In this document: piece by piece, positions 4,958 to 28,775 of the stretch | Numbering within the stretch: position 1 is the first letter of the stretch | Layout: each line of letters starts with the position of its first letter | Assembly: GCA_017854655.1 (NCBI GenBank) | Contig: JAFMHF010000009.1 | Coordinates: 1 to 41,148 of the forward strand | Length of the DNA: 41,148 nt | Source of the DNA: Puniceicoccaceae bacterium | Lineage (GTDB): Bacteria > Verrucomicrobiota > Verrucomicrobiia > Opitutales > Coraliomargaritaceae | Reading direction: 5' to 3' | Position numbers and translations under genes: made by a program | Notes under the pieces: model-generated | What the model saw: the letters and a program-made list of their open reading frames with translations, nothing else | Databases searched by the model: none | What the model was told of the DNA's origin: nothing

Positions 4958-4964
4958 ATTCATT

Positions 4965-5035
4965 GCGGCATAAACCCGCTCGCTACAAACTCTAGCAGTT
5001 GGGGAAACTCATAGCGACTGGTTTACGCCAGCCGG
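4965..5035. repeat. REP/BIME-like pair of hairpin modules (family B), locus 1
   Basis: gcggcataaacccgctcgctac (4965-4986; reverse complement GTAGCGAGCGGGTTTATGCCGC) and atagcgactggtttacgccag (5011-5031), facing each other. Both match modules at 28101-28197. Confidence 0.75.
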
Positions 5036-26698: not shown

Positions 26699-28054
26699 AT
26701 GACTACCAAGAAGACCAAGGCATCCGCCGCAAAAAAAGCTGTCGCTAAAAAACCTGCTACTAAGGCTAAGGCGAACAAGACTGTCGCTAAAAAACCTGCT
26801 ACTAAGGCTAAGGCGAAAAAGACTGTCGCTAAAAAACCTGCTACTAAGGCTAAGGCAAAAAAGACTGTCGCTAAAAAACCTGCTACTAAGGCTAAGGCAA
26901 AAAAGACTGTCGCTAAAAAACCTGCTACTAAGGCTAAGGCAAAAAAGACTGTCGCTAAAAAACCTGCAACTAAGGCTAAGGCAAAAAAGACTGTGACTAA
27001 AAAACCTGTGACTAAGGCTAAGACAAAAAAGACTGTGACTAAAAAATCTGCAACTAAGGATAGGGCTAAGGCTAAAAAAGCTGTCGCTAAAAAACCTGTA
27101 ACTAAGGCGAAAAAGACTGTCGCTAAAAAACCTGCAACTAAGGCTAAAAACACTGTCGCTAAAAAACCTGCAACTAAGGCTAAGGCTAAAAACACTGTCG
27201 CTAAAAAACCTGCAACTAAGGCTAAGGCAAAAAAAACTGTCGCTAAAAAACCTGCAACTAAGCCTGTTGCGAAGAAAGCTCCGGTTAAAAAAGCAGCAAC
27301 GAATCAAGCCACTAACCCTATTCCTTTAGCCAAGAATCCGTCGGTCGCACGCGAAGGCGAAGCTGCTAGTAACAAGGCCACACCGATCGCTTTTTCTTTT
27401 GATGACGTCGAGGCTCTCGTTGCAACTCGTAAAAAAGAAATTAAGTCGATACCCGATGAAGCCTCGGTAAAAAAGAAACTCGTACCGGTTAAAAAGAAGG
27501 CAGTCGTCGAAGATAAGCCTGTTAAAAAACGCGTACTCGGCGCTGCCTCACTCGCAGACATTTTAGGCTTCAACCCAGCAGAGAAGAAAAAAGTCACTTC
27601 ACTCGAAGATGAATCGATCCCTAAAAAGTGGAAGAAATATTACAAGCTTTTGCTCAATCTGCGTCAACATGTCAGCGATGAACTCGACCTCCATACCTCC
27701 GACACGCTGCAACACGCATCGCGCGATGAAGGAGACCGTAAACTCGAGTCCGATGCTGGCACCGATGCTTTTGACCGCGACTTTGCACTTAGCCTCGTAT
27801 CAAGTGAGCAAGAAGCCCTCAACGAAGTCGAAGAAGCGATTCTTCGCATTAAACAAGGTACTTATGGCGTCTGCGAAGTCACAGGTAAAACGATCAGTAA
27901 AGATCGCCTCGCAGCCGTGCCCTTCGCTCGCTACTCAATCGAAGGCCAAGCTGAATTCGAAAAAAACCAACGCCGTAAGATCGAACGCATTGCAGGTGGA
28001 CTTTTCGCTGACAGTGCCGATGCACCAAAGATCACGTCGGACGATGACGATTAA
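26699..28054 (+). CDS. DksA/TraR-like protein with Lys/Ala-rich histone-H1-like N-terminal tail
   Basis: N-terminal KTVAKKPATKAKAK repeats; C-terminal KWKKYYKLLLNLRQHV..LSLVSSEQEALNEVEEAILRIKQGTYGVCEVTGKTISKDRLAAVPFARYSIEGQAEFEK (DksA-type, degenerate Zn site). Confidence 0.9.
   Translation: MTTKKTKASAAKKAVAKKPATKAKANKTVAKKPATKAKAKKTVAKKPATKAKAKKTVAKKPATKAKAKKTVAKKPATKAKAKKTVAKKPATKAKAKKTVTKKPVTKAKTKKTVTKKSATKDRAKAKKAVAKKPVTKAKKTVAKKPATKAKNTVAKKPATKAKAKNTVAKKPATKAKAKKTVAKKPATKPVAKKAPVKKAATNQATNPIPLAKNPSVAREGEAASNKATPIAFSFDDVEALVATRKKEIKSIPDEASVKKKLVPVKKKAVVEDKPVKKRVLGAASLADILGFNPAEKKKVTSLEDESIPKKWKKYYKLLLNLRQHVSDELDLHTSDTLQHASRDEGDRKLESDAGTDAFDRDFALSLVSSEQEALNEVEEAILRIKQGTYGVCEVTGKTISKDRLAAVPFARYSIEGQAEFEKNQRRKIERIAGGLFADSADAPKITSDDDD
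26745..27270. repeat. 42-bp (14-codon) tandem repeats within the DksA-like gene
   Basis: aagactgtcgctaaaaaacctgctactaaggctaaggcaaaa repeated with minor variation and shortened units. Confidence 0.9.
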
Positions 28055-28100
28055 TCGGACGGCACACGTGCCCCTGATACTAACTTCAATATAGTTTGAT

Positions 28101-28197
28101 GCGGTCCTGGCGTAAAGCCAGTCACTACCAAAGCGACTTATCCTGGCGTAAAGCCAGTCACTACAGGTTTTTGTAGCGAGCGGGTTTATCCCGCGAT
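28101..28197. repeat. REP/BIME-like hairpin array (family B), locus 2
   Basis: Exact 24-mer tcctggcgtaaagccagtcactac at 28105-28128 and 28141-28164, then opposing gtagcgagcgggtttatcccgcgat at 28173-28197. Stems CTGGC/GCCAG and GCGGG/CCCGC. Confidence 0.85.
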
Positions 28198-28229
28198 ATC
28201 CTGCACCACAAAAAAAGCCCCATTCCACA

Positions 28230-28775
28230 TTGAACTCAAACATTCCAGACACTTCTTATAAGCGGCTTCTTATCACTGCGCTGATCGTGTTTGCGGCCGA
28301 TCAGCTCAGCAAGATCTGGATTTTCAACACTATGGCGCTGGATAGTTATTTTTATCCACACGATGCCGATGTCATCGAAGTGATCAAAAACTTCTTTTAC
28401 ATCGTACATATTGGCAACGAAGGGGCGGCATGGGGAATGTTCTCAGGCCACGGCGAGATTCTCGCCCTATTCGCATTGATCGCACTCTCTGCGATCTACA
28501 AATTTCGCCACACACTCGAACTCCACCGCATACCAATGCAATACGCATTCGGCCTATTGATCGGCGGAGTAATCGGCAATCTGATCGACCGCCTAGTGCA
28601 TGGCCATGTGATCGACTTTCTCGATTTCCATTTCGCATTCACCATTCCCTGGGTGCTGCCGACAGGCCGCTACCCCGCGTTTAACGTCGCAGACTGTGGC
28701 ATCGTGATCGGCGTCTTCACCTACATCACCTTGAGCTTCTTTCAGGCCGAAGCCTCTGAAGATGAAGGTAAATGA
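28230..28775 (+). CDS. lspA: Lipoprotein signal peptidase (signal peptidase II)
   Basis: VFAADQLSKIWIF, IHIGNEGAAWGMF-type region, GGVIGNLIDRLVHGHVIDFLDF, YPAFNVADCGIVIG catalytic Asp motifs. Start codon may be non-ATG. Confidence 0.95.
   Translation: MNSNIPDTSYKRLLITALIVFAADQLSKIWIFNTMALDSYFYPHDADVIEVIKNFFYIVHIGNEGAAWGMFSGHGEILALFALIALSAIYKFRHTLELHRIPMQYAFGLLIGGVIGNLIDRLVHGHVIDFLDFHFAFTIPWVLPTGRYPAFNVADCGIVIGVFTYITLSFFQAEASEDEGK

Follow-up and report, generated by a model that had tools for sequence, protein, structure and literature searches.

The intergenic region between a dksA/traR-type gene and lspA in a Puniceicoccaceae bacterium (Verrucomicrobiota; Opitutales; Coraliomargaritaceae; GCA_017854655.1) carries a cluster of short hairpins with a GTAG foot, and the question is what these hairpins are and how they came to lie there. 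The window, that is, the whole stretch of DNA analysed, is contig JAFMHF010000009.1, positions 1-41,148 (41,148 nucleotides), from a 2.3 Mb draft of 141 contigs (G000) which is one of the 12 incomplete draft genomes compared. A sequence-only reading had proposed a REP/BIME family with covarying stems, mobilised by a RAYT. We conclude that the hairpins are very probably REP elements in BIME arrangement, which would be copied in trans by a cognate RAYT encoded beside prmC on contig C45 of the same genome, hairpins and gene together making up a REPtron. The relevant features of the window are as follows.

4963-4986, minus strand: decayed REP, GC type, GTAGCGAGCGGGTTTATGCCGCAA, with 4/5 stem pairs
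5011-5031, plus strand: decayed REP, CT type, ATAGCGACTGGTTTACGCCAG, shortened (read directly from the sequence)
26699-28054, plus strand: dksA/traR zinc-finger gene, 5' neighbour of the cluster region
28055-28229, no strand: intergenic region bearing the REP cluster, dksA/traR gene to lspA (gene calls)
28105-28128, minus strand: REP, CT type, GTAGTGA-CTGGC-TTTAC-GCCAG-GA (exact pattern match, fold)
28141-28164, minus strand: second CT-type REP, lying head-to-tail with that at 28105-28128 (exact pattern match)
28173-28196, plus strand: REP, GC type, GTAGCGA-GCGGG-TTTAT-CCCGC-GA (exact pattern match, fold)
28230-28775, plus strand: lspA, 3' neighbour of the cluster region

All three modules of the cluster are present as the sequence-only reading described them, and its account of the stems is likewise accurate: three of the five pairs differ between the two module types, all three by compensatory changes. 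As single-stranded DNA each module takes the drawn fold, at -4.9 and -6.4 kcal/mol (z about -3). One hundred shuffles of the window yielded no match to a stem-agnostic pattern (GTAGYGA-N5-TTTAY-N5-GA, which places no demand on stem pairing). The GC-type module and the nearer CT-type module form an inverted heterodimer with the GTAG ends inside and a spacer of 8 bp. The decayed copies at 4963-4986 and 5011-5031 are also heterodimer partners, in the usual polarity. The dksA/traR-type gene encodes 451 aa, with a long Lys/Ala/Thr-rich repeat region preceding a C4 zinc finger.

The modules belong to a genome-wide family. The stem-agnostic pattern matches G000 48 times and its reversed control not once, and although the pattern ignores pairing, the five stem positions are fully paired in all 48 of the matches listed; relaxed scoring finds 65 copies in the stretches examined. 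More than 100 copies per genome are described as usual for REPs and the G000 family falls below that, but it has the many dispersed copies, and the GTAG foot 5' of a short palindrome, that characterise REP/BIME elements. Across approximately 286 kb of stretches from six genomes we counted 149 copies against one match to the reversed control, most with GCGGG/CCCGC (75) or CTGGC/GCCAG (47) stems, followed by CTGGG/CCCAG (9) and rarer others. A search of Rfam returned no family for these hairpins, only a tRNA being matched. Gene context in the same stretches, assigned with a simple home-made codon-score gene caller, places one of the 149 copies inside a called gene compared with 74% of random positions; the gaps occupied are mostly co-directional or convergent, with few copies between divergent genes.

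Among 33 distinct stem-agnostic matches, 87.9% of stem cells pair, compared with 67.7% on shuffling; covariation scores 0.60 for the real copies, 0.27 for shuffled copies and at most 0.11 with slid partners. The claimed covariation holds over distinct copies, but it had been stated too strongly: most of it comes from two master subfamilies that contrast with each other, indicative of copying and hairpin upkeep more than of repeated independent compensation. Additional cases come from the rarer stems of the CT subfamily, in which columns 11/19 and 12/18 change on both sides (CTGAC/GTCAG, CTGGG/CCCAG). Further copies, a frequency above chance and covariation, the absence of any of which was to count against the sequence-only reading, were thus all found. 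In the 135 copies with completely paired stems and no more than one departure from TTTA in the loop, loop positions 1 and 4 are never changed, position 2 is changed in two copies and position 3 in 12, some of these copies being related by descent rather than representing independent events.

Neighbouring copies follow a strict arrangement, with inverted pairs and mosaics of the kind seen in BIMEs. Inverted neighbours are always heterotypic (57 pairs) and direct neighbours always homotypic (38 pairs), and in each of the 374 pairs of copies lying up to 1 kb apart the polarity is the same, the CT type and the GC type occupying opposite strands; beyond 1 kb polarity is mixed. No relation was found between the polarity of clusters and the direction of flanking genes. 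A REPIN of the Pseudomonas type consists of two near-identical inverted REPs able to form one long hairpin, and since inverted neighbours here are never identical (0/57 homotypic), the pairs are not strict REPINs but BIME-like heterodimers. One could propose, with more doubt than confidence, that each stem type marks a functionally distinct end of a single directional unit, the two ends being handled asymmetrically by the RAYT so as to fix cluster polarity, rather than that heterodimers are only the survivors of the removal of long perfect palindromes. Why heterodimers are preferred had no obvious explanation in the 2013 survey (PMC3733652), a question on which a rule that has no exception up to 1 kb and does not depend on gene direction bears directly.

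The gene expected to act on such hairpins was found on another contig. A search with Pfam Y1_Tnp identified three genes in G000, one of which stands among hairpins of this family:

G000:C45, 278-841: RAYT-type gene, 187 aa, adjoining prmC (Pfam, NF047646 and PDB match)

Nine same-family hairpins surround this gene, three upstream and six downstream, the first downstream copy overlapping the reading frame at its 3' end, which is the flanking by cognate REPs that is typical of a RAYT gene; no such hairpins were found in the examined flanks of the other Y1 genes of the genus. In the protein, PDHFH aligns with the HUH histidine motif and Tyr121 with Tyr115 of E. coli TnpAREP (the Y115 named in PMC8266576), as required of a Y1 HUH domain with a tyrosine at the catalytic position. 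Its nearest PDB match is E. coli TnpAREP (4er8, E 6.6e-8) and its nearest family model NF047646 REP_Tyr_transpos, at 79.7 bits against a cut-off of 80, with two orthologues scoring 87.1 and 82.5 bits. All computable hallmarks of GTAG REP/BIME elements with a RAYT are present, bar this 0.3-bit shortfall of the G000 protein. Orthologues do not share the C-terminal tail that a REP encodes in the RAYT, and a role for this tail was accordingly discounted.

Orthologues of the C45 protein keep company with the same hairpins. Identity is 95% in G006, 68% in G004 and 60% in a Puniceicoccaceae MAG (LCM1.Bin39), and the genes are accompanied by 15, 7 and 2 same-family hairpins respectively, the last with one loop variant in addition; a scan of the named genomes found only two close relatives. 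The link to a RAYT that the sequence-only reading had drawn is supported by these associations, in which mobilisation itself would be the implied step. The gene adjoins prmC in G000, G006 and G004, and only one close homologue was found in the G000 draft, so that it has the single copy and stable place of a RAYT. The arrays beside it differ between G000 and G006 despite the 95% identical proteins, G006 having eleven GC-type hairpins in tandem approximately 51 bp apart. At the prmC site of G011, G009 and G005 no RAYT was detected and hairpin remnants are kept; in G011, a few dozen bases after a CT-type hairpin, comes TAGCGAGCGGGTTTATCCCAATG, the string with which the hairpin group beyond the RAYT closes in G006, as would be expected if the intervening stretch had been deleted. 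The prmC sites of G010, G001, G007, G003 and G002 show no such hairpin (the contigs of G002 and G007 end close by), and prmC was not found in the G008 draft. Loss of the RAYT in G011, G009 and G005 would be the simplest reading of this distribution. Exact copy counts in the three RAYT-positive genomes (48, 69 and 35) are the top three of the 12, the others having 0-33, a pattern with a chance of 1/220 for independent genomes, which these are not fully. Many copies also occur where no close RAYT was detected, as in G008 (33) and G011 (28, with its prmC site assembled).

Insertion sites were compared between relatives: at dksA-lspA and at sites C46, C42 and C109, some relatives carry copies and others lack them. 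Those at dksA-lspA are intact in G000, nearly intact in G008 (at contig ends) and decayed in G006, G005 and G011, while G009, G007 and G002 lack copies and in their place have a hairpin that leads into a T run (stretches L088, L089 and L093). As the window has no such T-run hairpin, the cluster may have replaced a terminator. We searched for a clean empty site at dksA-lspA, C46, C42, C109, C14 and C104, comparing the first four in detail; none with matching junctions was found at these four, where copy-free relatives differ beyond the repeat, in the surrounding bases. The dimer at G009:C37 (L169) has apparently been shortened, relative to G000:C46 (L054), by deletion between TCC repeats that left a CCCGC stub. 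For the window cluster, insertion between its two flanking genes is the most plausible reading, and the analyses done showed no separate function for it.

The genus has several further RAYT-type genes set among GTAG/GTGG hairpins of their own. A second such gene in G000, R2 (C93; L032 1489-2073, minus strand), lies among GTAGAAGCGACANNNNTGTCGCTT hairpins, and its palindrome GTAGAAGCGACACTCTTGTCGCTTT (L032 1386-2231) defines a second REP family of this genome with approximately 39 copies of the core, the symmetric pattern counting nearly every copy on both strands. At site C46, R2-family copies flank a dimer of the CTGGC/GCGGG family. Six further pairings of RAYT and hairpin (L067, L071, L072, L073, L075, L081, L065) each have their own foot, loop and stem set, and within a RAYT locus foot and loop are common while stems differ. 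Two stem types lie on opposite strands at R3 (G006:C26, G005:C3), R4 (G006:C30, few copies), R5 (G005:C24) and R7 (G004:C78), and the same stem occurs on both strands at R2 and R6 (G005:C47), indicating that the polarity rule is common rather than general. Having two homotypic sister families in the genus makes competing explanations of heterodimers testable side by side, and the different loops of the hairpins at several RAYTs make recognition by foot and loop testable by swapping pairs.

A mechanism of copying can be proposed for the family. When DNA becomes single stranded, on the lagging-strand template or during repair, each REP would fold; the RAYT would recognise the GTAG foot and the TTTA loop, use HUH/Tyr chemistry, with a 5'-phosphotyrosine link, to nick at a dinucleotide adjacent to the hairpin, and join the cut fragment elsewhere, copies surviving where they land in intergenic space. 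If foot and loop matter more than the letters of the stem, any stem that pairs may be tolerated, which would account for the two subfamilies (CTGGC/GCCAG and GCGGG/CCCGC).

The hairpins might instead be terminators or mRNA-stabilising structures of the neighbouring genes, kept for that role. The scarcity of copies in divergent gaps, the hairpin and T run in the dksA-lspA gap of the three REP-free relatives and the RNA-level roles proposed for REPs elsewhere (PMC3733652) are in keeping with this, but no terminator-like site was found at the window cluster, for which an intrinsic terminator is accordingly rejected. The polarity of clusters ignores gene direction, orthologous sites in relatives lack hairpins or hold decayed ones, and a role in the neighbouring genes leaves unexplained both the constrained loop and a RAYT set among the hairpins; we regard it as very unlikely. 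The protein shares its Y1 superfamily (Pfam PF01797) with the transposases of IS200/IS605 elements, of which the hairpins might be the ends, with miniature derivatives. This we consider exceedingly improbable: the GTAG foot is a mark of REPs, the protein scores only 22.2 bits with the IS200 model against 79.7 with NF047646, and an insertion sequence moves whole, so that the constant single place of the gene refutes such an origin.

It is less easy to set aside the idea that the hairpins are relics, amplified long ago and now static and decaying, on which the RAYT no longer acts. Decayed copies occur at 4963-5031 of the window and in relatives, and G005, G011 and G009 have copies in the absence of a detected close RAYT. 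Against this, all G000 sequences that match the foot and loop have stems paired throughout, the arrays at the RAYT have diverged between G000 and G006 while the proteins barely have, and the three RAYT-positive genomes hold the highest copy numbers, making wholly static relics an unlikely account. Family, copy number, intergenic bias, covariation and a RAYT among the same hairpins all support REP/BIME elements served by their RAYT. This provides uncultured Opitutales with a REP system complete with its transposase, and with a ready-made comparison in which the RAYT stands beside prmC in three species and is absent, with hairpin remnants, in three others.

A close parallel is the Mb REPtron of Marinomonas sp. 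MWYL1 (group 3 TnpAREP; PMC8266576), which has a GTAG foot, short spacer, perfect 5-bp stem and TTTA loop, and copies concentrated at the tnpAREP gene. SELEX and mutation showed that Mb requires loop bases T12, T13 and A15 with base 14 free (PMC8266576), and the positions needed there are those conserved here. In Mb two bases separate GTAG from the stem and the loop has 4 bases; in the present repeats the spacer is three bases (YGA), the loop is TTTAY, there are two stem types, and copies occur at a distance from the gene as well. Mb has demonstrated activity, whereas the present case is argued from sequence. In Pseudomonas REP families (for example that of P. putida GB-1, TGTGGGAGCGGGTTtACCCGCGAA; PMC2817692 Table 1), the GTAG/GTGG foot is again accompanied by a RAYT in the genome, and a very similar string is shared, GAGCGGGTTTA-CCCGCGA; homodimers predominate among the HH and TT dimers of P. 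putida and P. entomophila (PMC3733652), whereas no homotypic inverted neighbours occur here. The E. coli REP/BIME system with its TnpAREP (group 2; 4er8) shares the GTAG foot, a homologous RAYT and BIMEs of different REP classes in inversion, but its REPs are long and require a bulge for activity, unlike the short and perfectly paired repeats of this family. Our literature searches found no paper on repeats of this genus. In the same order, GTAG repeats were reported in 2013 from Opitutus terrae, with several GTAG families in one genome (PMC3733652), a likeness drawn from the description rather than from consensus sequences. The hairpins of the window are a known kind of bacterial repeat in a new lineage, for which Opitutus terrae provides the precedent within the Verrucomicrobiota.
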